From positions 4,340,001-4,404,000 of the forward strand of contig NZ_CP048405.1 of NCBI RefSeq assembly GCF_014084125.1: 64,000 bases of DNA. The letters run 5' to 3'. The stretch is from Streptacidiphilus sp. PB12-B1b (GTDB lineage Bacteria; Actinomycetota; Actinomycetes; Streptomycetales; Streptomycetaceae). The translations under genes were made by a program, and so were the position numbers. The notes beneath the pieces were generated by a model that was given only the letters and a program-made list of their open reading frames with translations, was not told where the DNA came from and did not search any database. Below are positions 6,042-40,488 of this stretch, piece after piece (the stretch's first letter is position 1; the number at the start of each line of letters is the position of its first letter).

Positions 6042-6071
6042 TCCCCCCCGGCACCCAGCGCCCCGGGACGA

Positions 6072-6107
6072 CGCAGCGCCCGCCGGATGATCCCGGCGGG
6101 CGCTGCG
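6072..6107. terminator. Bidirectional terminator between the protease gene and glnII
   Basis: Perfect 15-bp stem (CGCAGCGCCCGCCGG and its complement) with a 6-base loop, located between two convergent genes, 30 bp after the protease stop and 33 bp after the glnII stop. Confidence 0.88.
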
Positions 6108-6140
6108 GACGTCACGTCACGCGTCCTGATCGGACAACGG

Positions 6141-7163
6141 TCAGACCTGCTCGGCCTTCTCCAGCGCCGAGCAGCAGGTGTTGACCAGCAGGCGGGTCAC
6201 CACGTACGGGTCGACGTTGGCGTTGGGGCGACGGTCCTCGATGTAGCCCTTCTTGTCGACCTCGACCTGCCACGGGATGCGCACCGAGGCGCCGCGGTCG
6301 GACACGCCGTAGCTGTAGACGTCCCACGGGGCGGTCTCGTGCAGGCCGGTGAGGCGGTCCTGGATGCCGGAGCCGTACTGCTGGACGTGCTCCAGCACCT
6401 TCTCCTGGTCCGCGCCCAGCGACTCGCAGGCGGTGATGATGGCGTCGTAGCCCTCACGCATGGCCTTGGTCGAGAAGTTGGTGTGCGCGCCGGCGCCGTT
6501 CCAGTCGCCCTTCACCGGCTTGGCGTCCAGCGTCGCCGAGATGTCGAACTCCTCGGCGGTGCGGTAGAGCAGCCAACGGGCCACCCACAGGTGGTCGGAG
6601 ACGGTCAGCGCGTCGACCGGGCCGATCTGGAACTCCCACTGGCCGGGCATGACCTCGGCGTTGATGCCGCAGATGGCCAGACCGGCCTCCAGGCAGCGGT
6701 CCAGGTGCAGCTCGACGACGTCACGGCCGAACACCTCGTCCGCGCCGACACCGCAGTAGTAGCCGCCCTGCGCCGCGGGGAAGCCGCCGACCGGGAAGCC
6801 CAGCGGACGCTCGCCCTTGAAGAAGGTGTACTCCTGCTCGATCCCGAAGATGGCCTCCTGCGCCGCGAACCGCTCGGCGATGGGACGCAGCAGCGCACGA
6901 GTGTTGGTCTCGTGCGCCGTGCCGTCCGTGTTGAAGACCTCGCACAGCACGAGGACGTTGTCCCCGCCGCGGATCGGGTCCGGGCACGAGAAGACCGGCT
7001 TGAGCACGCGGTCGGACGCGTGGCCCTCGGCCTGGTTGGTGCTGGAGCCGTCAAAGCCCCAGGTGGGAAGCTCCGCGCCATCGGCCAGAACGCGGGTCTT
7101 CGAACGAAGCTTGGCGGTCGGCTCGGTGCCGTCGATCCAGATGTACTCAGCCTTGAAGCTCAC
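6141..7163 (-). CDS. glnII: Glutamine synthetase, type II (GlnII)
   Basis: A 340-residue eukaryote-like glutamine synthetase that makes glutamine from glutamate, ammonia and ATP. The start SFKAEYIWIDGTEPTAK, the Mg-binding FGIEQEYTF, the NAEVMPGQWEFQIGP motif and the ATP site DWNGAGAHTNFSTKAMR are diagnostic of GSII. The length fits the Streptomyces GlnII. GTG at 7163 was preferred because GAGGA lies 9 nt upstream; an ATG nine bases earlier would sit directly on that ribosome site. Streptomyces GlnII is a second glutamine synthetase beside the adenylylated GSI and is nitrogen-regulated through GlnR. The upstream region holds a GlnR-like site. Confidence 0.96.
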   Translation of the reverse strand: MSFKAEYIWIDGTEPTAKLRSKTRVLADGAELPTWGFDGSSTNQAEGHASDRVLKPVFSCPDPIRGGDNVLVLCEVFNTDGTAHETNTRALLRPIAERFAAQEAIFGIEQEYTFFKGERPLGFPVGGFPAAQGGYYCGVGADEVFGRDVVELHLDRCLEAGLAICGINAEVMPGQWEFQIGPVDALTVSDHLWVARWLLYRTAEEFDISATLDAKPVKGDWNGAGAHTNFSTKAMREGYDAIITACESLGADQEKVLEHVQQYGSGIQDRLTGLHETAPWDVYSYGVSDRGASVRIPWQVEVDKKGYIEDRRPNANVDPYVVTRLLVNTCCSALEKAEQV

Positions 7164-7293
7164 GGGCGGCATTCCTCGCGGTGGGGTGGGATCTGAGCGG
7201 TGACGTGGCGCGGTGCTCCGCGTCACTGGGGAGGTCCGCTGTCCTGATGGCCTCGAGGATCACAGCCCGCAATTTCCCACCTGTTGCCCATGT

Positions 7294-7310
7294 GTGAACG
7301 CGAGGTTAAC
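7294..7310. promoter_or_regulatory. Possible GlnR box upstream of glnII
   Basis: GTGAAC, five bases, GTTAAC lies about 130 bp before the glnII start. The half-site spacing of 11 bp resembles the gTnAc/GaAAc repeat recognised by GlnR in actinomycetes, but the match is loose and only one pair is clear. Confidence 0.35.
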
Positions 7311-7371
7311 CGACGTCATTCGTGCCACAGCTCACACGACCACACCTGTGCAGGTCAGCCCTGGGTGACGT

Positions 7372-8592
7372 TCAACTCCGGGTGAAGGCCAGGCTCACAT
7401 TGTGGCCGCCGAAGCCGAAGGAGTTGGCCACCGCCGCGCCCCAGGACCCCTCCCGCCGGGCCCCGGTGACCAGGTCCAGCTTCACCTCCGGATCCGGCCG
7501 GTCAAGGTTGCGGACCGCGGGCACCCGCCCGTCCCGCAGCGCCAGCACGGCCGCCACCGCACCGAGCGCGCCGGACGCGCCCAGCAGGTGCCCGGTCATC
7601 GACTTGGTCGCGGTGACGACGGGGTGCCTGCCGATCGCGGTGGCGATGGCCTGGGCCTCCACCACGTCCCCGGCGGGCGTGGAGGTCGCATGCGCGTGCA
7701 CATGGTCGATGTCCAGCGGCGACAGGCCGCTCTCGGCCAGGGCCTGCCGGATCGCGCGCACCTGGCCGGCGGCGTCCGAGCCGGTGATGTGGGCCGCGCT
7801 GGAGGTGATCCCGGCCCCGGCCAGCAGTGCGTGCACCCGCGCCGACCGCGCCCGCGCCAGGTCCGCGCGCTCCAGCACCAGCAGCGCGGCGCCCTCGCCC
7901 ATGACGAAGCCGTCCCGGTCCAGGTCGAACGGCCGCGAGGCGGCGTCGGGGTCGTCGTTGCGCGTCGACAGGGCCATCATCTGGCCGAACGCCGCCAGTG
8001 GCAGCGGCGCCACACATGCCTCCGTGCCGCCCGCGACCACGACGTCCGCACGCCCCAGGCGGATCAGGTCCAGCCCCATGGCGATCGCCTCCGCCCCCGA
8101 CGAACAGGCGCTGACCGGCGTCCGGGCCCCGCCCAGCGCGCCGAGCTCCATGCTGACCCACGCCGCCGGGCCGTTGGCCATCAGCATCGGCACGGTGTGC
8201 GGGGAGACCTTGCGCGGCCCGGACGCCTCCAGGTTGTCGTCCTGTTCCAGCAGGGAGCGCACCCCGCCGGTCCCGGTCCCGATGACCACCGCCAGCCGCT
8301 CCGGATCCACGTCCGGACGCCCGGCCTGGGCCCACGCCTCACGCGCGCAGACCAACGCCACCTGCTCGCAGCGGTCCAGTCGGCGGGCCTCCACCCGGGT
8401 GAGCACATCGGTGGGCTCGACCGCCAGCCGCGCGGCGATCCGCACCGGTAGCGGCTGGGCCCAGTCCTCGGCGAGGGCGGACACCCCCGAGCGGCCCGCG
8501 AGCATGCCCGCCCACGTGGCCGCCACATCACCCCCGAGCGGCGTGCTGGCACCCATTCCGGTCACTGCGACCTCGATCGTCCCGCCTGCCAT
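7372..8592 (-). CDS. Beta-ketoacyl-ACP synthase (FabF/KAS II-like)
   Basis: A 406-residue ketosynthase that condenses an acyl group with malonyl-ACP. The catalytic triad is intact: Cys in TPVSACSSGAEAIAMG, His in HVHAHATSTPAGDVVEA, and His in KSMTGHLLGASG. The C-terminal signature ANSFGFGGHNVSLAF is also present. The fold and length match FabF. It is not next to an acyl carrier protein, malonyltransferase or FabH, so it is probably a stand-alone paralogue rather than the housekeeping enzyme of the fab cluster. It could also serve polyketide or lipid tailoring. The start ATG 8592 gives the normal EVAVTGMGASTPLG N-terminus. Confidence 0.92.
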   Translation of the reverse strand: MAGGTIEVAVTGMGASTPLGGDVAATWAGMLAGRSGVSALAEDWAQPLPVRIAARLAVEPTDVLTRVEARRLDRCEQVALVCAREAWAQAGRPDVDPERLAVVIGTGTGGVRSLLEQDDNLEASGPRKVSPHTVPMLMANGPAAWVSMELGALGGARTPVSACSSGAEAIAMGLDLIRLGRADVVVAGGTEACVAPLPLAAFGQMMALSTRNDDPDAASRPFDLDRDGFVMGEGAALLVLERADLARARSARVHALLAGAGITSSAAHITGSDAAGQVRAIRQALAESGLSPLDIDHVHAHATSTPAGDVVEAQAIATAIGRHPVVTATKSMTGHLLGASGALGAVAAVLALRDGRVPAVRNLDRPDPEVKLDLVTGARREGSWGAAVANSFGFGGHNVSLAFTRS

Positions 8593-8773
8593 GCGTACGC
8601 TCCCGTGTCAGAGGATTCGAACGAACCCGGCCTTACGAGCCGGCATGACCAGCTCGGGCCATATCCGGCTCCTGCCAGCCTGACATGGGCGTTGGAACAG
8701 AGGCGATCGCCGCAGGCACCGAAGCAGACCCGGCAGCCTTGTGGGGTCTTCACAACACGACGATCGGGTCAGG

Positions 8774-9412
8774 TCAGCTGCCGGGAACGATGTCGACCCG
8801 GTCGCTGCCGCTGCGCTCGACCTCGGCGGATCCGGCGGTCACCGACGCCAGCCAGGCCCCGAAGGCAGCCACCGCGCTCTCGGGCACGCCCACGTCGAAG
8901 CACACGCCGTCGGCGCTGTACCGCACATCGCGGACCACATGACCGGCCGCCCGCAGATCGTTCTCCAGCCGTCCCGCCCGGGCATGGTCGGTGGTGACCG
9001 CGAACAGCGCCACCAGCTGGCGCTCCACGATCACGGCCTGGTCCAGCGCGGCGGACACTGCCCCGCCGTACGCCCGCACCAGGCCGCCGGCGCCGAGCAG
9101 TACACCGCCGAAGTAGCGGGTGACCACCGCGACGGTGTCGGTCAGCCCGCGTCGCCGGATCACCTCCAGCATCGGCGCCCCTGCGGTCCCGGCCGGCTCG
9201 GCGTCGTCATTGGACCGCTCACGCCGGGGCTGGTCACCGATGACATAGGCGGTGCAGTTGTGGCGCGCGTCCCAGTACCGCTTGCGTACCGAGGCGATGA
9301 ACGCCTGCGCCTCCGCCTCGTCCTCCACCCGACCGATCGAGCAGAGGAAACGGGACTTCTTCACTTCGATCTCGTGCCGGACCGGGCCTTTGACAGTCAG
9401 ATAGGGTTCCAT
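8774..9412 (-). CDS. YigZ/IMPACT family protein
   Basis: A 212-residue protein of the UPF0029/YigZ family (related to eukaryotic IMPACT). The biochemical role in bacteria is not settled. The N-terminal domain holds the signature HNCTAYVIGD, SNDDAEPAGTAGAPML and VVTRYFGGVLLGAGGLVRAY (about residues 50-125). The C-terminal ferredoxin-like part (about 130-205) binds nucleic acid in homologues. It is the last gene before the rRNA operon terminator, on the same strand, and is separated from the upstream-reading fabF-like gene by 181 bp without a recognisable gene. Confidence 0.9.
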   Translation of the reverse strand: MEPYLTVKGPVRHEIEVKKSRFLCSIGRVEDEAEAQAFIASVRKRYWDARHNCTAYVIGDQPRRERSNDDAEPAGTAGAPMLEVIRRRGLTDTVAVVTRYFGGVLLGAGGLVRAYGGAVSAALDQAVIVERQLVALFAVTTDHARAGRLENDLRAAGHVVRDVRYSADGVCFDVGVPESAVAAFGAWLASVTAGSAEVERSGSDRVDIVPGS

Positions 9413-9454
9413 GCGCTCCGTCCGCGACAGGACCGAAACGGGTCCGGGAATGCG

Positions 9455-9489
9455 GAAAGGCCCTCTGACTCGAGGTCAGAGGGCCTTTC
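9455..9489 (-). terminator. rRNA operon terminator
   Basis: Perfect 14-bp stem (GAAAGGCCCTCTGA and its complement) with a 7-base loop, 12 bp past the 3' end of 5S rRNA on the minus strand. The GGCCTTTC end gives a short U-rich tail. Confidence 0.95.
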
Positions 9490-9500
9490 ACGAAAGGTTG

Positions 9501-9617
9501 TTCGGCGGTGTCCTACTCTCCCACAAGGTCCCCTTGCAGTACCATCGGCGCTATGAGGCTTAGCTTCCGGGTTCGGAATGTAACCGGGCGTTTCCCTCAC
9601 GCTATGACCACCGTAAC
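9501..9617 (-). rRNA. rrf: 5S ribosomal RNA
   Basis: About 117 nt. On the minus strand it begins GTTACGGTGGTCATAGCGTG and ends with GGACACCGCC. The universal CCGAACCCGGAAGCTAAGCC-type core is present. It is the last gene of the 16S-23S-5S operon. Confidence 0.96.
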
Positions 9618-9708
9618 ACTATGAAGTTGACCCGCACTCCCCGGCATGACGCTCCCGGGGAGGGGTCGTTGCTTCAGAACAACACAGTGGACGCGTAGCA
9701 ACTATGGA

Positions 9709-14653
<4,945 letters not shown>

Positions 14654-27287: not shown

Positions 27288-30200
27288 TCAGCCCACCGGC
27301 CTCCGGTAGATCCGCGTGGAGGTCAGCTCGCCCTGGATGTCCGGTGCGTCCGGATCGGCCACCGGCAGGCCCGGACGCAGGTGCTCCTCGACCGAGATGA
27401 ACTTCTGCCCGGCCCGCAGGTCGGCGTCGTTGCGCAGCCGGATGATCAGCGGGAACTCGGCCAGGGCGTTGGCGTCCAGCAGTCCGGTGGTGTAGATCAG
27501 CTGCACGCCCAGGGCCGAGGCCACCGCCCGCTGCAGCTCGATCAGGTAGGTGGCGTTGGCCCGGCCGATCGGGTTGTCCAGGAACAGCGTCCCCGCGTGG
27601 GCCAGCCGGGCCTGCCCCTGGTCGTTGGAGCGCAGCGCGGCCATGGTGCAGTACAGCGCGATGGCGGCGGTGAGCAGCTGCCCGCCGGAGAAGACGTCCG
27701 ACATCTGGCTGACCGAGACCCGCTCGGCCCGCAGCACCGCGTCCGGCTTCAGGATCTCCACCGCGACGCCCTTGGGCTCCAGCGCCGCGTGCACCCCGCG
27801 CAGCAGCAGCGACATGCCGTCGCGGCGGCCCCAGTCGCTGCCCCCGCCCGCGCCCGCGGCCCCGCCGGTCCGGCGGACGGCGGCCCGGGTGGCCTCGTCG
27901 ATGACCTCGCCCAGGCGCTCCGTGAGCAGGGTGTGGTCCGGGTCCTCGAAGCGGATCCGGAGGAACTCCTGGCCGGACCACTCCCCCAGGCCCTCGGGCA
28001 GCCGGGAGAGCCGCTGGGCGGCGCGCAGGGTCGCCAGCGAGGTCTCCACCAGGCCGCGCAGCCGGTCGACGATGGAGTCCCGGTTGCGCTCCAGCTGCTC
28101 CAGCTCGTCGGTGAGCACCCGCAGCCGGGGCGCGAAGGCGGTGGCCCAGGCTGCCGCGTGGTCCGGCAGGGCGGCGGCGGGCAGCTCCCGGATCTGCTGC
28201 CGGGCGGGGGTGCGCACGGCCTCGTAGCGGGTGGCGTTGGCGTGCCGGACCAGCGCGTCGGAGGCGTCGCGGACGGCCAGGTCGGCGCCGGCCAGGTCGG
28301 CGGTGGCGGCGCGCAGGGTGCGCCGGGTCTCGGCGGCGGCCTGGCGGGCCTCGGCCAGGCTGCCCGGGTAGGCCGGCGCCTCCTCCTCGGCCTCGCCCGG
28401 GGCGGTGCCCGGTGCGGGCTCGCGCAGGCCGTCGCGCAGCTGCGCGGCGGCCTCGTCGAAGTCGGCGGCGGCCAGCTGCGCGGCCTCCAGGGTGCGCTGC
28501 AGCTCCGCGTGGGCGGCCCGGCCGGCCGCCAGCACGTCGGCGCGGCGGGCCAGCTCGGCGGTGGCGGTGCGCAGCAGCGCCTGGGCGTGCTCCGGGTCCT
28601 GCGGGACCAGCTCGTCGGGCAGCTCGGTGTGGGCGTCGCCGACCGCCGGGGCGCTGCGCTCGGCCTCGCCGCGCAGCCGACCCAGGTGCTCGCTGGCGGC
28701 CGAGGCGCGGGACTCGATGGTCTGCACCAGCTCCTCGGCGCGGGCGGCGGCGGCCTGCCGGGCCGGGCCGTCGGCGCCGTCAGGGGTGGTCAGCAGCTCC
28801 TCGGCGCGGCTGCGGACCTTGTTGGTGAGCCGGTCCAGCTCGCTGCGGGCGGCGGTCTCGTCGCCCTCGGCCCGGGCCTGCTCGGCGCGCAGGTCAGCGC
28901 CCACGCCGACCTGCTCGTACAGCTGGGAGGCGGCGCGGTGGGCCTCGCGCAGCGCGGGCAGCGAGGCGCTCGGCCGGTCGGGCTCGGCCGCCCCGGCCGG
29001 ATCCGGGTCGGGCAGGTCGGAGCCGGGCAGCTCGGCGCGTTCGGCGCGCAGAGCGCGGACGGTGCGGCGGGCGTCGTCGGCGGCGCGCTGGGCGGCCCGG
29101 CGGTCCTCGTCGGCGGCCTGGGCGCGGTCGGTGCACAGCAGTTGGCGCTGCTCGGCCTCGGCGGCCTCGTCGGCGAGCTCCCGCAGCCGTCCGGCCCAGC
29201 GGCTGCGCTCCCGCAGCCGGAAGGCCAGGCCGGTGAGGGCGTCGGCGCGGCGGCGGGCCTGCTGGGCGGCCTCGGCGCGGTCGTCCCGCAGCCGCAGGGT
29301 CTCGCTCTGCTCGGCCTCGGCCTCGGCCAGCTCGGCCCGGGCGGCGGCCAGCTCGCCGGTGGCCGCCTCCAGCGCCTCCTCGGCGGCCCGGACGTCGGCG
29401 GCGAGCGCGGCCAGGTGCCCGGCCGGGCAGCGGGCGCGCCAGGAGGTGAGCCGGCCGGCCAGCAGCCGGTCCGCGCCGAGCCGGGCGGCCAGCTCGCGGA
29501 TGTGCTCGTCGCGGGCGGCGGCCCGGTCCCGCAGCTGGCGGCGCTCCTCGTCGGCGGCGTTCTCGTCGTGCATGGCCGGGTTCGGCGGGACCAGGAAGAG
29601 GTCCTCCCCCGCCGCCCCGGGGTCGGTGACCGGGGCGAGCAGCGCGGCGGCGGTGCCGACCGCGACGGCCGAGCGCGGCAGCAGCGCCGCCTCGGCGAGG
29701 ATCTCCCGGGCCCGCCGCAGCGCCTGCGGGTCGGTGACGATGACGCCGTCGACCAGCTGCGGCCGGGCGTCCAGGATCCGGTCGTGGTCGACCGGGTCGA
29801 CCGACTGGGCCAGGTAGCGCCAGCCGGGCAGCGCCGGGACGCCGTGCTCGCCCAGGTACTCGACGGTCGCCAGCACGTCCGGACCGGGCGGCAGCAGCCC
29901 GCCGTCGCCGAGGGCGGCCAGCACCCGGGAGTCGGCGGCGGCCGCGGTGCGCAGGTCGAACAGGGTGCGCTCGGCCGAGGCCACGGAGTTGTCCAGCAGC
30001 TCGCGCAGCGAGTCCGCCGAGCGGTCGAAGGCGTCCGCGGACGCCTGCTGCGGGTCGTCGGCGGCCAGGCCCAGCAGGTCGGCGGCGCGCGGCTCGGCGG
30101 CGAGCCGGGCGGCGGTGTCCTGCTCGGTGTCCAGCACGGTACGGGCGGCGGCCAGCGCGTCGCTGGCGCGGGCGGCCGCCAGCTCGGAGCGGTTGGCCCG

Positions 30201-31985
30201 GGCGGCGGCCTCCCTCGTGCGGGCGGTGGCCCGGTCGGCGGCGGCCCTGGCCTGCTCCCAGGCGGCGGTGGCCTGCTGCTCGGCCCCGGCGGCGTCCAGC
30301 GCGGCCCGGGCCGGATCGACCGCCTCGAACTCGCCGGTGGCGCCGTCGATCCAGCCGGAGCGGACCGCGGCCTGGGTCTCCTGCTCGACCTCGGCCAGCC
30401 GCTGGCGCAGGTGCTCCGACTCGCTGCGGGCCTTCTGCCCGGCGGTGGCGGCGGCGGTGGCGTCCCGGCGGGCCGCCTCACCCTCGGCCTGCAGCGCACC
30501 GGCCCGCTGCTCCTCCTGGTCGGCCTGGGCCTCGGCGGCGCCGGCCGCCGTCTCCAGGGCGCGGACCAGCGCCAGGGCGGCGCGGGTGCGGGCGGCCAGC
30601 GCCGGGGCGGCGTCCCGCTCGGCCTCGCGGATGGCGGCGGAGACCTGCGCCGAGCGGTCGGCGGCGGCGCGTCGGCGCAGCACGATCTCGGCCGCCTGCC
30701 AGGCGGAGTGCAGGGTACGGGCGTCCAGGAGCTCCCGGCGCAGCCCGGCGGCGGCGCCGGTGGCGGCGGCCAGCGCCAGGCTGGCGTGCCGGTGCGTCAG
30801 CTCGGCGGTGACCAGGGACTGCCGGGTGCGGGCGTCGTCCGCGTCGGCGACGACGGTGGCGGCCTCGGCGACCTGCTCGGCCAGCTCCCGGCAGCGGTCC
30901 CGCTCGGACGAGGCGCGGACGGCCAGGGTGCGGGCCAGGCGGCGGGTGCGGCGCTCGGCGGAGCGGTGGGTCTCGCGGACGCTCTCGCGGGCGACAGCGG
31001 CCTCGGCGATGCGGCGCAGCAGGTCCAGCGAGCCCGCCGTGAAGTCGCGTTCGGCGGTCAGCTCGGCGCGGCGGCCCAGCTTGGCGGCGAAGCCGTGGAC
31101 CAGGTCGGCCAGGCCGTCGGTGTCGCGGGTGTCGGTGACGGCGCGCAGCAGCAGGTCGGTGAAGTCGGCGTCGTTGCGGACCGCGAACAGCCCGGCCGCC
31201 TCGCCCTCGTCGGCGTTCATCTCGCGCTGGTAGCGGAAAAGCTCCGGGTCCAGGCCGAGGCCGCCGAGGTGCTCGATCCAGCGGTCGTGGCCCTCCTCCC
31301 AGGTGAGGTCGAGGTCGGGGTAGGTCTTCCCGGCCTCGGTGAGGGCGTCCCGGAACCCCTTCATGGTGCGGCGCCGGCCGCGGGCCGAGAAGCGCCGGCG
31401 GACGGCGTCCCCGGCCGGTCCGCCGTCGGCGGGCGCGGGCCGTTCCAGTTGCTCGGGCCGGGGCTCCTGGCCGGGGGCCGGCAACAGCACGGCGTGCTCG
31501 GCGACGGGCAGCGACTCCAGGCCGAGGCCGGGGCCGGGCCGGAACGAGTACCACGCCTCGGCGAACTTGCGCGGGTCGGCCGAGACCTGGCGTCCGCGCC
31601 ACTCGCTGACCTTGCCGACCACGACCGTCTCGCCGGTGACGGTGTGCTGCCACTCCAGGGCGACGTGGCCGCAGTCGTCGGCGAGCAGGAACTTGCGCAG
31701 CACGCCGGAGCTGGCGCCGCCGAGGGTGTTGCGGTGGCCCGGCAGCATCACCGAGAAGATCAGCTTGAGCAGCACCGACTTGCCGCCGCCGTTCTCCAGG
31801 AACAGCACCCCGGCGGGCGCGGGGCGGCGCACCGGACCGGTGGCCTCCTCGTCGAAGAAGCCGGGCTGGCGCGGCGCGGGCTCGGGCACCGGATCGCCGA
31901 CATCGCTCAGGTCGAGCACGGTGTCGGCGTACCGCGCACCGGCGGGGCCGATGGAGTACAGGCGGACCCGGTTCAGCTCGTACAT
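27288..31985 (-). CDS. jetC: SMC-like ATPase of a Wadjet/Mks-type complex (JetC/MksB)
   Basis: A 1,565-residue MukB/JetC-like SMC ATPase. The N-terminal head has Walker A ENGGGKS at about residues 64-70. The middle (about 320-1,330) is Ala/Arg/Glu-rich with long coiled-coil character and a hinge-like, less charged region around 650-800. The C-terminal head has the ABC signature FSGGQLLTAAIAL (about 1,432-1,444) and a Walker B strand GTLFLDNP (about 1,464-1,471). The residue after the Walker B Asp is Asn, not the usual Glu. It follows jetA- and jetB-like genes on the same strand with 74 bp spacing. Related complexes extrude DNA loops and restrict plasmids (Wadjet) or help segregate chromosomes (MksBEF). 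No nuclease subunit gene is adjacent. Confidence 0.82.
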   Translation of the reverse strand: MYELNRVRLYSIGPAGARYADTVLDLSDVGDPVPEPAPRQPGFFDEEATGPVRRPAPAGVLFLENGGGKSVLLKLIFSVMLPGHRNTLGGASSGVLRKFLLADDCGHVALEWQHTVTGETVVVGKVSEWRGRQVSADPRKFAEAWYSFRPGPGLGLESLPVAEHAVLLPAPGQEPRPEQLERPAPADGGPAGDAVRRRFSARGRRRTMKGFRDALTEAGKTYPDLDLTWEEGHDRWIEHLGGLGLDPELFRYQREMNADEGEAAGLFAVRNDADFTDLLLRAVTDTRDTDGLADLVHGFAAKLGRRAELTAERDFTAGSLDLLRRIAEAAVARESVRETHRSAERRTRRLARTLAVRASSERDRCRELAEQVAEAATVVADADDARTRQSLVTAELTHRHASLALAAATGAAAGLRRELLDARTLHSAWQAAEIVLRRRAAADRSAQVSAAIREAERDAAPALAARTRAALALVRALETAAGAAEAQADQEEQRAGALQAEGEAARRDATAAATAGQKARSESEHLRQRLAEVEQETQAAVRSGWIDGATGEFEAVDPARAALDAAGAEQQATAAWEQARAAADRATARTREAAARANRSELAAARASDALAAARTVLDTEQDTAARLAAEPRAADLLGLAADDPQQASADAFDRSADSLRELLDNSVASAERTLFDLRTAAAADSRVLAALGDGGLLPPGPDVLATVEYLGEHGVPALPGWRYLAQSVDPVDHDRILDARPQLVDGVIVTDPQALRRAREILAEAALLPRSAVAVGTAAALLAPVTDPGAAGEDLFLVPPNPAMHDENAADEERRQLRDRAAARDEHIRELAARLGADRLLAGRLTSWRARCPAGHLAALAADVRAAEEALEAATGELAAARAELAEAEAEQSETLRLRDDRAEAAQQARRRADALTGLAFRLRERSRWAGRLRELADEAAEAEQRQLLCTDRAQAADEDRRAAQRAADDARRTVRALRAERAELPGSDLPDPDPAGAAEPDRPSASLPALREAHRAASQLYEQVGVGADLRAEQARAEGDETAARSELDRLTNKVRSRAEELLTTPDGADGPARQAAAARAEELVQTIESRASAASEHLGRLRGEAERSAPAVGDAHTELPDELVPQDPEHAQALLRTATAELARRADVLAAGRAAHAELQRTLEAAQLAAADFDEAAAQLRDGLREPAPGTAPGEAEEEAPAYPGSLAEARQAAAETRRTLRAATADLAGADLAVRDASDALVRHANATRYEAVRTPARQQIRELPAAALPDHAAAWATAFAPRLRVLTDELEQLERNRDSIVDRLRGLVETSLATLRAAQRLSRLPEGLGEWSGQEFLRIRFEDPDHTLLTERLGEVIDEATRAAVRRTGGAAGAGGGSDWGRRDGMSLLLRGVHAALEPKGVAVEILKPDAVLRAERVSVSQMSDVFSGGQLLTAAIALYCTMAALRSNDQGQARLAHAGTLFLDNPIGRANATYLIELQRAVASALGVQLIYTTGLLDANALAEFPLIIRLRNDADLRAGQKFISVEEHLRPGLPVADPDAPDIQGELTSTRIYRRPVG

Positions 31986-32059
31986 GGGGTGTCGGTTCTC
32001 CGTGCTCGTGAGGGCTTGTGCGGGGCGGTCGGGCGGGGTGCGGTCCGGGCGCGGTGCGG

Positions 32060-33035
32060 TCAGGCGGAGTGGAACGGCAGTCCGGCGTCGGCGACCAGGT
32101 CCTCGGTGGCGTCCGGCGGCAGCAGGCTGGCGCTGCCGTCGCTGACCGGGACGACGCCCAGGGCCAGCAGCTCGGCCATGGCGGCGCTGCCCGCGAGGTC
32201 CCGGACCTGGAGCTGGTAGCGGGCGGTGGTGCGGAAGGTGCCGCCGGAGTCGTCGGAGGTCTTCTGCAGGAAGCCGGAGTCCACCAGGAAGGCGGTGGCC
32301 TTGGAGACGATGCCGATGGTGGAGCCGGACAGGCGGCGGGCGTCCTTGGTGGCGCCGGTGGCGCTGCGCCGGGCGTAGACCCGCCAGGCGGCCTCCAGTC
32401 CGGGGGCGTCGCTGGCCGGGTCGGTGTTGGCGCCCTCGGTGTCGGCCTGCTCCTCCATCCGGCGGCAGACCTGGCGGACGAAGGTGTCCACGCCGTTGAC
32501 GGTGATCCGGCCGAGGTAGCCGTCGTCGGCGAGGTCCTCCGGGCGGGGGAAGGCCAGCGCGGCGACGGCGAGGTGGGCCAGCCCGTGCAGGAAGCGGTCG
32601 GAGGACTCGGACGCGGCCCGGCGGGAGTACTCGCCCAGCCGCACCGCGAAGACCGAGTCCTCGTCGGCGGCGACGGCCATCCCGGCGCGCGCGGAGACCT
32701 CCAGCACCACCAGGCCGAGGCCGGTGGCGACGGCGTCGGCCAGGCGGGCGAAGCCGGGGTCGTCGCGGTAGCGGCGGATCAGCTCGGCGTACTCGGCGTC
32801 GCGGGCGGGCAGCAGCTTCGGCTGGAGCCCGAAGGAGACCAGCCGGGAGGCGTCGGCGACGTCGGCCGGGGTGATCGAGGCCGGGGCGTGGCGCGGGTCG
32901 GCGGCGGAGGCCGCGGCGGGCGCTGCGGCGGCGGTGGTCGGGGCGTCGGCGGGGTGGTCACGGGCGGGGCTCCAGGCGGTGCGGTGCGGGGCGTACGGCG
33001 GCGCGGGCTGCGGCGGGCGGGGCGCTGGGGGTCAC
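32060..33035 (-). CDS. jetB: MukE/JetB-like subunit (DUF4194), 5' end out of frame
   Basis: The small winged-helix subunit of the SMC complex, DUF4194/MukE-like. The body is open from the jetA stop down to 32060 and includes ITPADVADASRLVSFGLQPK, GLVVLEVSARAGMAV, SSDRFLHGLAHLAVAALAFP and GVVPVSDGSASLLPPD. No ATG, GTG or TTG lies in that frame before GTG 32710, which would lose the conserved N-terminal third. The expected start is GTG 33035: it overlaps the jetA stop as GTGA, has GGAGG just upstream, but is in another frame that stops at 32958. Dropping one C from the five-C run (33031-33027) would join it to the body. Sequence error or real frameshift; the former seems likelier. Confidence 0.72.
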
Positions 33036-34546
33036 GTGGCCTCCGCGCGTTCGGCGGCCATGCCGGCCGCGTCCAGCAGGGCGCTGCCGACGATGAGGTC
33101 GGCGCCGCCGAACTCCGGGTCGTCCAGCCGGGTGCCGTCGTCCACGGCGAACAGCAGCCGCTCCTCGCCCTGGCGGTAGGCGGTGCCGACCGGCGGGCTG
33201 GCCGCGTGCACGGCCAGCAAAGCGACCAGGTAAGGGAGTTCGGGGTCGCGGCGGCGGGCCTCGGCGAGCAGGCCGGACAGCCGCCGGGGGGCGTCCGGCG
33301 CCAGGTCCAGCAGCTCTTGGGCGGCGTCCAGCTGGGCCTCGGAGAAGCGGCTGTCGTCGGGGGTGTCGACCAGGTCGGGCTCCTGCAGCTCCGCGCCCAG
33401 GTGCTCGCGCTCGACCGGCGGGGTGAGCAGGACCTCGATCAGGTCGTTGACGCGGACCGCGGCGCGGGTGCGCAGCCCTATGCCGTGGCTGAAGAAGGCG
33501 TCGGTGACCTGCCCGGCCTGCTCCACCGGCAGCCGCAGCAGCGGGGCCAGCAGCTGCCCGTACAGGTCCAGGCCGGTGCGGGCGGTGGGCGCGGCGAACG
33601 CCTGCCGGTCCTGCTCGGCGCGGAACAGCGGGCCCGCCTCCAGCAGCCGGGTCTGCAGCTGGGTGTGGCGGCGGATGCAGTCCTTGACGATGTCGACCAG
33701 CTCCGCGGCGCGGCGCTTGTGCTCGGCGCCCTCGGGGCTGTTGGGCTCGGCCTCGTCGCGGGCGCGGCGGATGTTGGTGAGGATGGCGTTCTCGTGCCGG
33801 TAGCGGTCGGAGATGTGCTCCAGCGCCTCGGCGATGAGGTCGGGGACGGTCTCCATCCAGTCGACGGCGCGGACGTTGCGGCGGGTGGCCTCCAGGGCGC
33901 GGCGCAGCGTCTCGGCGAACTGCACGGTGCGGTAGCGGGCCTGCTCGGCGGCGAGCTGGGCGTCGGCCAGCCGGCCCCGGCGGATCAGCACCTCCAGCTT
34001 GACCTCGGCGGCGATCTGGGCGCTGGTGACGTCCGTGTCCAGGGCCCCGACCAGGACGTTGACGGCCTCGTCGGTGGTGCGCAGGTAGACCCCGCCGTCG
34101 GGGCCGGGGACCTCTTCGATGAGCTTGAAGTCGTAGTCGCGGCGGACGTACTCGCCGCCGGAGGTGAAGGTACCGTAGACGGCGCGGAAGCCGCGGTCCA
34201 CGCTGCCGACGTTGATCAGCGACTCCAGCACCCAGCGGGCCACCCGCTCGTGCTCGCGCCAGGGCCGCTCCGGGGCCTGGGCGGCGACCCGGGGGTGCAG
34301 CCGGGCCAGGACCTGGTCGCGGTCGGCGCCGGTGTCGAAGTCCATCTGCAGGGTGACCAGGTCGATGGCGGCCAGGGCGACCTCGGCCATGCCGTAGACG
34401 GCGTACTCGCCGGCCAGGTTGGCCTTGCGGCTGTCGAGGTCGTGCAGCGGCGCGGTGCAGGCCAGCGCGCGCAAACGCCTGGCCAGCCCCTCGTCGGCGG
34501 CGGGGCCGAGCGCGGGGCGGCTGCTGGGTTCGGCGGTGGTGGTCAC
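33032..34546 (-). CDS. jetA: Kleisin-like subunit of the SMC complex (JetA/MksF)
   Basis: A roughly 504-residue, mainly helical, charged protein without membrane segments. It occupies the kleisin (MukF/JetA) position directly upstream of the MukE- and MukB-like genes. The N-terminal half contains RTTDEAVNVLVGALDTDVTS and a long helical stretch (AEVKLEVLIRRGRLADAQLA). The assignment rests mainly on gene order; the sequence itself has no short diagnostic motif. GTG 34546 was chosen over TTG 34555 because it lies 8 bp after TAATCT (34560-34555), suggesting a leaderless message. The stop overlaps the predicted jetB start by 4 bp. Confidence 0.72.
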   Translation of the reverse strand: MTTTAEPSSRPALGPAADEGLARRLRALACTAPLHDLDSRKANLAGEYAVYGMAEVALAAIDLVTLQMDFDTGADRDQVLARLHPRVAAQAPERPWREHERVARWVLESLINVGSVDRGFRAVYGTFTSGGEYVRRDYDFKLIEEVPGPDGGVYLRTTDEAVNVLVGALDTDVTSAQIAAEVKLEVLIRRGRLADAQLAAEQARYRTVQFAETLRRALEATRRNVRAVDWMETVPDLIAEALEHISDRYRHENAILTNIRRARDEAEPNSPEGAEHKRRAAELVDIVKDCIRRHTQLQTRLLEAGPLFRAEQDRQAFAAPTARTGLDLYGQLLAPLLRLPVEQAGQVTDAFFSHGIGLRTRAAVRVNDLIEVLLTPPVEREHLGAELQEPDLVDTPDDSRFSEAQLDAAQELLDLAPDAPRRLSGLLAEARRRDPELPYLVALLAVHAASPPVGTAYRQGEERLLFAVDDGTRLDDPEFGGADLIVGSALLDAAGMAAERAEAT

Positions 34547-34554
34547 GATCAGCA

Positions 34555-34560
34555 AGATTA
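34555..34560 (-). promoter_or_regulatory. -10 box of the jetABC operon
   Basis: TAATCT on the minus strand, 8 bases before GTG 34546. The -35 region is poor. No Shine-Dalgarno sequence is seen, consistent with leaderless translation of jetA. Confidence 0.45.
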
Positions 34561-34715
34561 GAGGCTGACACCGACAAGGTCCGAAACGCCACGTATCGCG
34601 GCGACTTGTGCGATCGCGCTGTGCGATGGCCGGTAACGGCGCGTGACCGCGCGGCCGGGGGGCGTCCCGGTCCGCGCGGTCACGGTCTTGGGGGTGGTGC
34701 GGGGTGCGGCGGTGC

Positions 34716-36344
34716 TCAGCCGAGTTCGTCGGAGAGGAAGTTGCCGCCGTTGTAGGAGCCCCAGCCGGTCACCTTGTCGTAGCCGGTGCCCGCCTTGTAG
34801 GCGCCGTTGCTGCCGCTGGTGACGTCGTGGAAGGCGCTCTTGTAGTTGGACGACTGGGCCAGCGCGTAGATGCTGGCGTTGGCGAAGCCGAGCGAGGACT
34901 TGCCCTTGGCCTTGGCCTCGTCGTTGTAGATCGCGGTGAAGGCGGCCCAGTTGGGCGCGGCGGCGCTGGTGCCGCCGAACTCCTGCCAGGAGCCCTCGGT
35001 GTAGATCGCCCAGCCGGTGCTCGGGTCGGCGTCGGCCGCGACGTCCGGAACGGCGCGGTAGGTGCCGCTGTTGACCGGGGTCTGGAAGCTCGGGGTGGTG
35101 AAGTAGGAGGAGACGCCGCCGCCGCTGTCGGACCACGCCTTCTCGGAGCTCCACCCGTTGGAGGAGGTGATCTTGAGGGTGGTGCCGCCCGCGCCGGTGA
35201 CGTACGGGTCGGACGCCGGGAAGTCGACGGAGGTGCCGCCGTCGCCCGCGTCGTCGGAGCCGCTGTCGCCGGAGGCCGCGTAGATGGACTGGCCCTGCGC
35301 GGCGGCCTCCTGGAAGTCGGTGTTCAGGGCGGTGCGGTTGCTGGCGGTCTCCGCGGCCTCGTCCTGGCCCCAGCTGGTGGAGATGTCCGGGACGTCGTCG
35401 CTGACCAGCTGCGCGTAGACGGCGGCCTCGCCGGCGTCGCTGTTGGGCGCCTCGTAGACCTTGATGGTGGCGCCGGGGGCGAGCGCCTGGACGACCTCGA
35501 TGTCCAGCTCGACCTCGTCCTCACCGGACGTGTCGGTGGTGCCGCCGTCCGACTTGACGACCACCGGGGTGGACGGCGTCAGCGAGAACTTCTTGTCGTA
35601 GGTGGTGACGTCGGACTGGGTGAAGGCGGAGAACTCCTCCAGCGCGACGGTCTGGCCCGCGCCGGTGTAGCCGGCGCTGATCGAGGAGGTGAGGTTGTAG
35701 GCGCCGCGGACCTGGGTCGGGGTGTACCCCTGGACGCTGGCCTTGGAGGTCTGCGGGGCCTTGGCGATGTTCCGGTGCGAGACCGCGTAGTTGGACAGGC
35801 CCGAGACGTCGGTGACGGCGGCGGCGATCCCGGCCGGCAGGACCGGCGCGGCGGCGTTGGCGTAGAAGGTCCGGCCGGAGCCGTCCCGGTAGGTGGCGAT
35901 GGTGGTGCCGAACGCCTTCTGGACCTGGGCGGCGCTGCCGCTGGCCGACAGCGTCAGGCCGTTGGCGGTGACCTTGCCGACAGTCAGGCCGTGGGACTTC
36001 AGGTACGCGCTGACCTGGGCGACGGTGGCCGGGGCCGCGCCGAAGCGGTCCGCGAACTGCTTGACCGTCAGGTAGTGCTTGTACTGCGCGGAAGCGGGGT
36101 CCGCGACCTCCTTGAGGAAGGTCTGCAGGCCGGCCTGGTCGCGCTGGGCGAGGCTGACCGTGACCTGTATCGACGTGCTCGCGGCCAGCGTGCCGACGCG
36201 GGCGGCCTGGGACACGGCCGGCACCACGTCGCCGCGCAGGGCGAGGGTGCCCGGCTGGGCGGCCTGGGCCGGGACGACGGCGACAGCGAGGATCGGCAGG
36301 GGTGCTGCGAGCAGTCCGATGGCGTACCGGAGAGGCAACTTCAC
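34716..36344 (-). CDS. Secreted S53 peptidase (sedolisin / pro-kumamolisin type)
   Basis: A 542-residue secreted acid serine-carboxyl protease. A signal peptide (LPLRYAIGLLAAPLPILAVA, then PAQAAQ) is followed by a pro-domain of about 150 residues (FLKEVADPASAQYKHYLTVKQ split, QFADRFGAAPATV). The catalytic domain starts near residue 205. The S53 triad is seen as Glu/Asp in EDEVELDIEVVQALAPGA and Ser in GGTSAAAPNWAAF; ASGDSGSDDAGDG is the oxyanion Asp region and a C-terminal Ca-binding end is present. GTG 36344 follows GGAGG. A LuxR-type regulator gene lies directly upstream on the same strand. Confidence 0.93.
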   Translation of the reverse strand: MKLPLRYAIGLLAAPLPILAVAVVPAQAAQPGTLALRGDVVPAVSQAARVGTLAASTSIQVTVSLAQRDQAGLQTFLKEVADPASAQYKHYLTVKQFADRFGAAPATVAQVSAYLKSHGLTVGKVTANGLTLSASGSAAQVQKAFGTTIATYRDGSGRTFYANAAAPVLPAGIAAAVTDVSGLSNYAVSHRNIAKAPQTSKASVQGYTPTQVRGAYNLTSSISAGYTGAGQTVALEEFSAFTQSDVTTYDKKFSLTPSTPVVVKSDGGTTDTSGEDEVELDIEVVQALAPGATIKVYEAPNSDAGEAAVYAQLVSDDVPDISTSWGQDEAAETASNRTALNTDFQEAAAQGQSIYAASGDSGSDDAGDGGTSVDFPASDPYVTGAGGTTLKITSSNGWSSEKAWSDSGGGVSSYFTTPSFQTPVNSGTYRAVPDVAADADPSTGWAIYTEGSWQEFGGTSAAAPNWAAFTAIYNDEAKAKGKSSLGFANASIYALAQSSNYKSAFHDVTSGSNGAYKAGTGYDKVTGWGSYNGGNFLSDELG

Positions 36345-36433
36345 GGGAGTCCTCCAGGGACAGGGTGCGCGCACGCCTTCCTCGGCCCGGCGGGGCCGAG
36401 GATCGGGATGCGCCCGAAGTGGTCGTGTCCACG

Positions 36434-39711: not shown

Positions 39712-40488
39712 GTGGAACACGGACCAGTCGATCTCAACGCGGATCTGGGCGAGGGCTTCGGCCGGTGGCAGCTCACCGACGACCAGGCCCTGCTCTCCGT
39801 CGTCACCAGCGCCAACGTGGCCTGCGGCTTCCACGCGGGCGACCCCTCGACCATGCGGCGGGTGTGCGAGCTGGCCGTGGAGCGCGGGGTCCGGATCGGC
39901 GCGCAGGTCTCCTACCGGGACCTGGCGGGGTTCGGCCGGCGCGCCATGGACGTCCCGCGCGCCGAGCTGGCCGACGAGATCGCCTACCAGCTGGGCGCGT
40001 TGGACCTGTTCGCCCGGGCGGCCGGGGGGCGGGTCGCGTACCTCAAGCCGCACGGCGCGCTGTACAACCGGGTGGTCTCCGACGAGCAGCAGGCCGGCGC
40101 GGTCGTGGACGCGCTGCTGGCCTACGCCCGGGCCGACGGCCGGTCGCTGCCGGTGCTCGGCCTGCCCGGCTCGGCGCTGCTGCGGGCCGCCGCCGCGGCC
40201 GGACTGCCGGTGGTCGGCGAGGCGTTCGCCGACCGCGGCTACACCCCGGTCGGGACGCTGGTGCCGCGCACCGAGCCGGGCGCGGTGCTGCACGAGCCGC
40301 AGACCGTGGTCGACCGCGCGGTGGGCATGGCCAGGGACGGCGCGGTGACGGCCGCCGACGGCAGCCGGATCGCGGTACGCGCACGGTCGCTGTGCCTGCA
40401 CGGCGACACCCCGGGCGCGGCCGCACTGGCGGGCCGGGTGCGCGCGGCGCTGGAGCAGGCCGGGGTACGGGTGGAGGCGTTCGCATGA
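39712..40488 (+). CDS. pxpA: 5-oxoprolinase subunit PxpA
   Basis: A 258-residue LamB/YcsF-family protein. It is the PxpA subunit of ATP-dependent 5-oxoprolinase, which opens pyroglutamate to glutamate. The start VDLNADLGEGFGRW, SANVACGFHAGDPSTM, YLKPHGALYNR and SLCLHGDTPGA are family signatures. GTG 39712 is the start that gives the standard N-terminus. Its stop overlaps the pxpB start as ATGA, so the three subunits are translationally coupled. Confidence 0.96.
   Translation: MEHGPVDLNADLGEGFGRWQLTDDQALLSVVTSANVACGFHAGDPSTMRRVCELAVERGVRIGAQVSYRDLAGFGRRAMDVPRAELADEIAYQLGALDLFARAAGGRVAYLKPHGALYNRVVSDEQQAGAVVDALLAYARADGRSLPVLGLPGSALLRAAAAAGLPVVGEAFADRGYTPVGTLVPRTEPGAVLHEPQTVVDRAVGMARDGAVTAADGSRIAVRARSLCLHGDTPGAAALAGRVRAALEQAGVRVEAFA

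Follow-up and report, generated by a model that had tools for sequence, protein, structure and literature searches.

The window analysed here is a stretch of 64,000 nucleotides from the chromosome of Streptacidiphilus sp. PB12-B1b, a member of the Streptomycetaceae (contig NZ_CP048405.1, positions 4,340,001 to 4,404,000). Its minus strand carries, from 34546 down to 27288, three genes in the order jetA-jetB-jetC, which are predicted to encode a structural maintenance of chromosomes (SMC) complex related to Wadjet, preceded by a promoter-like sequence (Table 1). The outer genes match the PADLOC profiles of JetA3 and JetC3, and by these sequence families the trio belongs to Wadjet type III. No gene of the nuclease JetD accompanies it. 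The initial annotation, made from the letters of the window, had already reported three minus-strand genes in the order of Wadjet and Mks systems without JetD, and this picture holds: the open reading frames (ORFs) lie as described and the order recurs elsewhere. The best 80 of 521 candidate loci retrieved from named genomes with a query of the type found here (hereafter the core type), which lean to that type and several of which end at contig ends, have JetB after JetA in 78 cases and JetC in 76, a recurrence showing that the A-B-C order is not due to chance. One locus (L054 of genome G037, 6070-11327) has about 5 kb with other genes between jetB and jetC, the operon being split there.

Table 1. 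Features of the jetABC locus and of its upstream region (positions in the window)
Feature	Position	Strand	Basis
jetA (type III), MukF-like kleisin	33032..34546	-	504 aa from GTG 34546; PADLOC PDLC00567, 613 bits
jetB, MukE/KITE-like, conserved part, 271 aa	32060..32875	-	alignment of relatives; predicted fold
jetC (type III), SMC ATPase, 1565 aa	27288..31985	-	PADLOC PDLC00588, 1335 bits
JetC Walker A ENGGGKS, residues 64-70	31776..31796	-	motif in sequence
Putative PafBC/RecA-NDp-type promoter TTGTCGGTG-N8-TAATCT	34555..34577	-	match to consensus (PMC5656591)

Besides Walker A, JetC carries the signature FSGGQ and the Walker B motif LFLDN, and all three motifs are kept in each of the 22 Streptomycetaceae and 13 Frankiaceae loci examined. 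The aspartate of Walker B is followed by asparagine, not by the usual catalytic glutamate, in all the loci where the pattern was found, i.e., 112 of 131 (81/94 core, 20/22 Frankiaceae and 11/15 JetD-bearing loci, the non-matching ones not having been inspected). As it also occurs in 11 of the 15 JetD-bearing loci, this asparagine looks like a trait of the type III family, which could be of interest for enzymology. Neither JetA, JetB nor JetC has a significant match in Pfam or in NCBIfam (where JetB was searched as its short ORF), and a sequence search of the PDB gave nothing useful for JetA or JetC. That JetC could be a canonical Smc, RecN or SbcC was considered and rejected: a search of the genome with TIGR02168 gave six matches, none of them at jetC, and no Pfam model of canonical SMC or SMC-like proteins matches it, so the trio does not fall into an unrelated SMC-like family, as the initial annotation had allowed. 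A canonical Smc is encoded elsewhere in this genome (C1:6401851-6405534, 880 bits). Pairwise comparison of the window with five relatives gave ratios of nonsynonymous to synonymous substitution rates (dN/dS) of 0.11-0.28 for jetA, 0.17-0.30 for jetB and 0.26-0.43 for jetC; these values are rough, given a possible bias at the synonymous sites of genes this rich in GC, and they indicate that the three genes are under purifying selection.

The mechanically called ORF of jetB (32060-32710) is too short, its conserved frame extending upstream to at least 32875. In relatives the gene starts with a GTG which corresponds here to 32961, out of frame with the conserved part in this assembly. The frame break lies between 32961 and 32875 (minus strand), in an Ala/Pro-rich stretch, and could be either an assembly error or a real change. 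JetB has no significant match in Pfam, NCBIfam or PADLOC (short ORF against all three, longer frame against Pfam and PADLOC), and L072, which is a JetD-bearing locus, has a JetB that likewise matches no model. The JetB of the window shares 42-54% identity with nine JetBs from JetD-bearing loci and 29-32% with two distant ones. Its predicted structure (mean predicted local distance difference test, pLDDT, 76) has MukE in the 13 best rows of Foldseek, the best E value being 2.6e-3 and none reaching 0.001. With VIA-align the nearest chain is the JetB 8dk1_E (Z 8.1, 170 residues, 4.3 Å), followed by MukE (Z 7.5-6.8), then by winged-helix proteins (Z 6.6, within 1.5 Z of the top match) and Nse1/Nse3-type chains (Z 6.5 and 6.2). 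JetB was initially described as DUF4194/MukE-like; its MukE-like character is borne out by the fold, and no significant match to the DUF4194 model was obtained. From identity and predicted fold, JetB would be the KITE subunit of a type III Wadjet and a member of the JetB/MukE group. In the same way, the JetA model (pLDDT 76) is nearest to MukF chains within residues 172-327, to which this match is limited (compact matches with Z 12.9-14.0 over 138-154 residues). CorA helical bundles come close behind (Z 12.6 after 12.9) and Foldseek E values are weak, the best being 3.4e-3. These fold matches support the family assignment of JetA and JetB without proving it. As modelled, an SMC protein with a MukF-like kleisin and a MukE-like KITE protein and no nuclease has the architecture of MukBEF and MksBEF.

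The genome consists of one contig of 7.67 Mb and is rated 100% complete. No JetD was found anywhere in it with Pfam PF09983, PADLOC PDLC00594 or a profile built from eight type III JetDs, which speaks against the early suggestion of a JetD-type nuclease encoded elsewhere in the genome. The other way out, a jetD standing beside the trio in relatives, also finds no echo: none of the 64 loci among the 80 named ones that have at least 8.5 kb after jetA carries a JetD. Furthermore, genes called by a home-made GC3-based program were clustered, first for the window together with 21 family loci and later for 75 long loci, and no nuclease was seen among the recurrent neighbours. These recurrent neighbours are what we take to be PxpA/5-oxoprolinase-type genes, a GntR-like regulator, a transporter, a small protein and a conservon-type sensor kinase. 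A type III Wadjet would have JetD in its operon or in its genome, and the trio of the window has it in neither.

JetA is present in 149 of the 150 Streptomycetaceae genomes sampled, covering 17 of 17 genera. A close-type JetA is found in 148 of them, with 76-97% identity among the matches listed (own genome apart). Of the two others, G010 has only a distant JetA (E value 4.9e-18) belonging to a JetD-bearing jetABCD locus (L133, 28% identical), and G074, an assembly of 670 contigs, has no JetA match. Type III JetD occurs in 14 of the 150 genomes at an E value of 0.001, as detected with a profile whose eight source rows come from these same genomes, one of the hits (G069) being a weak match over 47 positions; any JetD of PF09983 is found in 19. 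The trio is therefore a core gene set of Streptomycetaceae, and it does not have the patchy, mobile, defence-type distribution expected of Wadjet. Wadjet was reported to be enriched in Actinobacteria and towards the ends of Streptomyces chromosomes (PMC10482375), in a study whose available text nowhere names JetD, so that its counts may or may not include the JetD-less trio. As for gene numbers in S. coelicolor, SCO1631-1633 was a guess that found no support in the literature, and no number is claimed here.

Complete accessory jetABCD loci are also present within the family (L071-L075, L079, L080 and L082). The one of G099 has its parts on two contigs (L077 and L078), and that of G103 (L081, 4899-6121) has its jetA interrupted by two genes that cluster with genes of L076, an insert that looks like a mobile element. 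In the wider class, JetA was found in 49 of 296 genomes, 31 of Streptomycetaceae and 18 of Frankiaceae, and type III JetD in nine. Among the 29 Frankiaceae genomes, 18 have JetA and six have type III JetD; of the loci retrieved from this family, L125, L130 and L132 carry JetD and the others do not, some of the latter ending at contig ends. Judging from these sequences, a similar JetD-less trio exists in many Frankiaceae.

A tree of JetA and JetB was computed from 30 chosen rows, its root being placed by us on the JetD-bearing loci L079 and L080. The JetD-less loci of Streptomycetaceae form one clade (support 99/100) and those of Frankiaceae another (100/100), both nested among JetD-bearing rows by branches supported at 100/99 and 100/100. 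Both groups still lie inside in a quick tree of 44 rows whose root was placed on two distant JetD-bearing rows with long branches; root support is weak there, and the two JetD-less groups stand on one side of a branch with support 10. A single clade uniting them is not rejected by the approximately unbiased (AU) test (p 0.47). JetD is also part of Wadjet types I and II, which makes its loss likelier than a late gain. On these phylogenies, and subject to where the root is placed, the ancestor bore JetD, which was probably lost, once or twice.

The sequence upstream of jetA is conserved among relatives. In the window it contains an exact match to the full box of the PafBC/RecA-NDp consensus, tTGTCRgtg-8nt-TannnT (PMC5656591), ending 8 nt before the GTG that is the best start of jetA. 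The shorter pattern TTGTCRG-N10-TAnnnT was sought in 94 core loci, 93 of which had enough sequence; it is exact in 57 of them, with one mismatch in 30, two in four and three in two. Thus 87 of these 93 loci, which are related and hence not independent, are within one mismatch, versus 0.1% of mononucleotide shuffles (0.05% exact and 0.05% with one mismatch). When A or T is allowed at the first position, 82 matches are found on both strands of the 94 whole loci, and 79 loci have a match at jetA. In the 87 core loci with at most one mismatch the start codon lies 6-8 nt after the -10 box, which suggests that the jetA message is probably leaderless.

The exact motif occurs at 28 sites of the genome (L218-L245), versus two for a reversed control. 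The downstream genes were chosen by a script and analysed with Pfam for 27 sites (all but jetA), as a plain count, the names below being ours, assigned from Pfam families. Ten sites precede replication or repair genes: dnaX, holB, xseB, a UvrD helicase gene, recD2, an exonuclease III-type gene, mgsA/rarA, uvrB, recA and ligA. Three further sites precede a gene of the Pup-ligase family, rpsF and jetA itself. PafB-like and PafC-like genes are present, a gene for a WYL protein adjoining one for a protein with WYL and HTH_PafC domains in the Pup-ligase region. Taken together, these data suggest that a PafBC regulon, whose mechanism was described in mycobacteria (PMC11804915, PMC8223512), exists in Streptomycetaceae.

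The trio is flanked in the window by a GDSL lipase gene and by a gene with a pro-kumamolisin domain, as assigned by Pfam, in keeping with the lipase and S53 protease genes of the initial annotation. For the latter gene (34716-36374, minus strand), the pro-kumamolisin activation domain is the only convincing Pfam domain, and no peptidase domain appears at an E value of 1. A PxpA-like gene lies at 39712, past a LuxR-type AAA gene and the pro-kumamolisin-domain gene. The jetC side holds the lipase gene and glycerol-metabolism-like genes, presumably glp genes. Synteny of the flanks is partial across the 75 long family loci, 44 of which have a PxpA-like gene, 45 a conservon-type kinase gene and 36 a GntR-like regulator gene (labels that are, again, our assumption); this fits vertical descent. 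Among 19 genomes hand-picked from those that have the trio on one large contig, it is located in the outer 20% of the chromosome, on either side, in 14 and in the outer 10% in four. The trio of the window itself is at 43% of its chromosome.

We favour, with a probability of about 0.6, the reading that the trio represents the motor of a type III Wadjet which has lost JetD and was kept as a core SMC complex, induced by damage and working on the DNA of its own cell. Of the options named in the initial annotation, a condensin of the chromosome and a variant not yet described would both still fit, narrowed to a type III Wadjet that forms a family-wide core set behind a PafBC-type promoter. From the genes and their promoter, we infer PafBC binding, induction by damage, loop extrusion and a role in repair. 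Single-stranded DNA resulting from damage would activate PafBC, which would let the housekeeping RNA polymerase use the jetA promoter along with those of recA, uvrB, ligA and other genes. JetA, JetB and JetC would then assemble a MukBEF-like dimer that loads onto the chromosomes of the cell itself, where it extrudes or tethers loops, thus holding broken or replicating DNA together during repair. As JetD is absent, the complex would not cut DNA. A more detailed scenario, to which we would give somewhat less than even odds, is that Streptomycetaceae dropped the nuclease of an anti-plasmid SMC system and kept a damage-responsive promoter common to their JetD-bearing relatives, thereby obtaining a damage-inducible repair SMC, a bacterial functional counterpart of Smc5/6, in nearly all sampled genomes beside the canonical Smc (checked in this genome).

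Several observations weigh against this reading. The core type is absent from two of the 150 genomes (G010 and G074), and the jetB frame is interrupted in the very assembly studied here. The full nine-base box, TTGTCRGTG-N8-TAnnnT, is present in only 26 of the 93 core loci, as compared with 57 for the shorter one, and 15 of the 28 sites of the genome precede mixed or unassigned genes. The motif is absent or poor in Frankiaceae (1/15 loci within one mismatch, 0/22 by the looser pattern), so that damage control does not extend to every JetD-less trio; a promoter common to the core type and a JetD-bearing clade and hardly found in Frankiaceae would also favour two losses of JetD. With at most one mismatch, the motif is shared by six of 14 JetD-bearing loci (L071, L073, L074, L075, L078 and L132), and alone it therefore does not mark a non-defence role. 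Lastly, according to an initial search S. venezuelae would seem not to have conserved the PafBC motif of M. smegmatis, and the text available (PMC9380542) leaves the matter open; the genome-wide count obtained here, for a relative of that species, points the opposite way.

Streptomyces chromosomes are linear and the cells multigenomic. They could gain from an additional condensin, and the trio could thus be a constitutive chromosome-organising complex, involved in arm alignment or sporulation compaction like MksBEF of P. aeruginosa, with the PafBC-type promoter merely modulating it. Its core, intact state and its MukBEF-like architecture agree with such a function. However, the sole conserved upstream element noticed is a damage-type promoter, found together with those of recA, uvrB and ligA, and no tie of the trio to sporulation turned up, sites of sporulation regulators not having been searched for; this explanation appears unlikely. 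Less probable again is a persisting role against plasmids or phages, in which extrusion would detect small circular DNA and silence, compact or sequester it uncut, or rely on an unrelated host nuclease. The promoters of the six JetD-bearing loci indicate that damage-type control is compatible with defence, but the trio is near-universal and partly syntenic where patchiness would be expected, and no other conserved nuclease stands among the clustered neighbours of the 75 long loci.

A core trio and a full accessory jetABCD coexist in some genomes (e.g., G042, G052 and G065), so JetABC could be partnered in trans by the JetD of accessory type III Wadjets. With type III JetD in 14 of 150 genomes versus 148 for the core trio, and with accessory loci that encode their own JetABC, this seems very improbable. 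A decaying Wadjet remnant is hardly more credible: the lack of JetD, the interrupted jetB and the distance between jetB and jetC in L054 would fit decay, but retention in 148 genomes, intact motifs where checked, dN/dS well below 1 and a conserved promoter already contradict it for the family as a whole.

If the favoured reading of a damage-induced complex acting on host DNA is true, the best-studied antibiotic producers have a second, overlooked SMC complex. In the part of its text available, a 2026 article on the organisation of Streptomyces chromosomes (PMC13121528) speaks of SMC, and of MksB only through a mycobacterial reference. No description of a JetD-less core trio in Streptomyces was found in the titles, abstract openings and some passages of the literature on Wadjet, MksBEF and PafBC, which is no proof of its absence from print. 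The trio would also be the second example, after MksBEF of P. aeruginosa, in which a defence SMC gave up its nuclease and took on host DNA instead, and JetD-bearing relatives in the same family allow a direct comparison. Furthermore, the suggestion of a PafBC-type regulon in Streptomycetaceae bears on the question left open in PMC9380542. A motor without its cutting subunit, placed behind a switch used elsewhere for DNA-repair genes, suggests that machinery of defence was converted to the care of the genome.

Among known systems, Smc5/6 is a functional comparison only, as an SMC-kleisin-KITE complex tied to genome stability, Nse1/Nse3-type chains being among the fold matches of JetB; no membership is claimed. 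The putative regulon resembles the mycobacterial PafBC/RecA-NDp regulon by its promoter consensus, the kind of companion genes (recA, uvr genes) and the presence of PafBC-like genes, and differs from it by having an SMC complex as a member; the available text of PMC9380542 leaves the Streptomyces response open. The trio shares with MukBEF a predicted JetA fold nearest to MukF and a predicted JetB fold nearest to JetB/MukE, but it shows no significant Pfam sequence match and coexists with a canonical Smc in this genome. With type III Wadjet (JetABCD) it shares the JetA3 and JetC3 hidden Markov model matches, the A-B-C order and the LDN of Walker B, as in JetD-bearing copies. It differs by the lack of JetD, by being core and partly syntenic whereas Wadjet is patchy, and by not being expected to cut DNA. 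MksBEF of P. aeruginosa is JetD-less and chromosome-acting; the trio, known here from its genes, differs from it by its type III lineage, its bacterial group and its PafBC-type promoter. In the available text of PMC10586767, JetABC is viewed as the sensor and JetD as the effector, and P. aeruginosa MksBEF is thought to derive from JetABCD through the loss of JetD.

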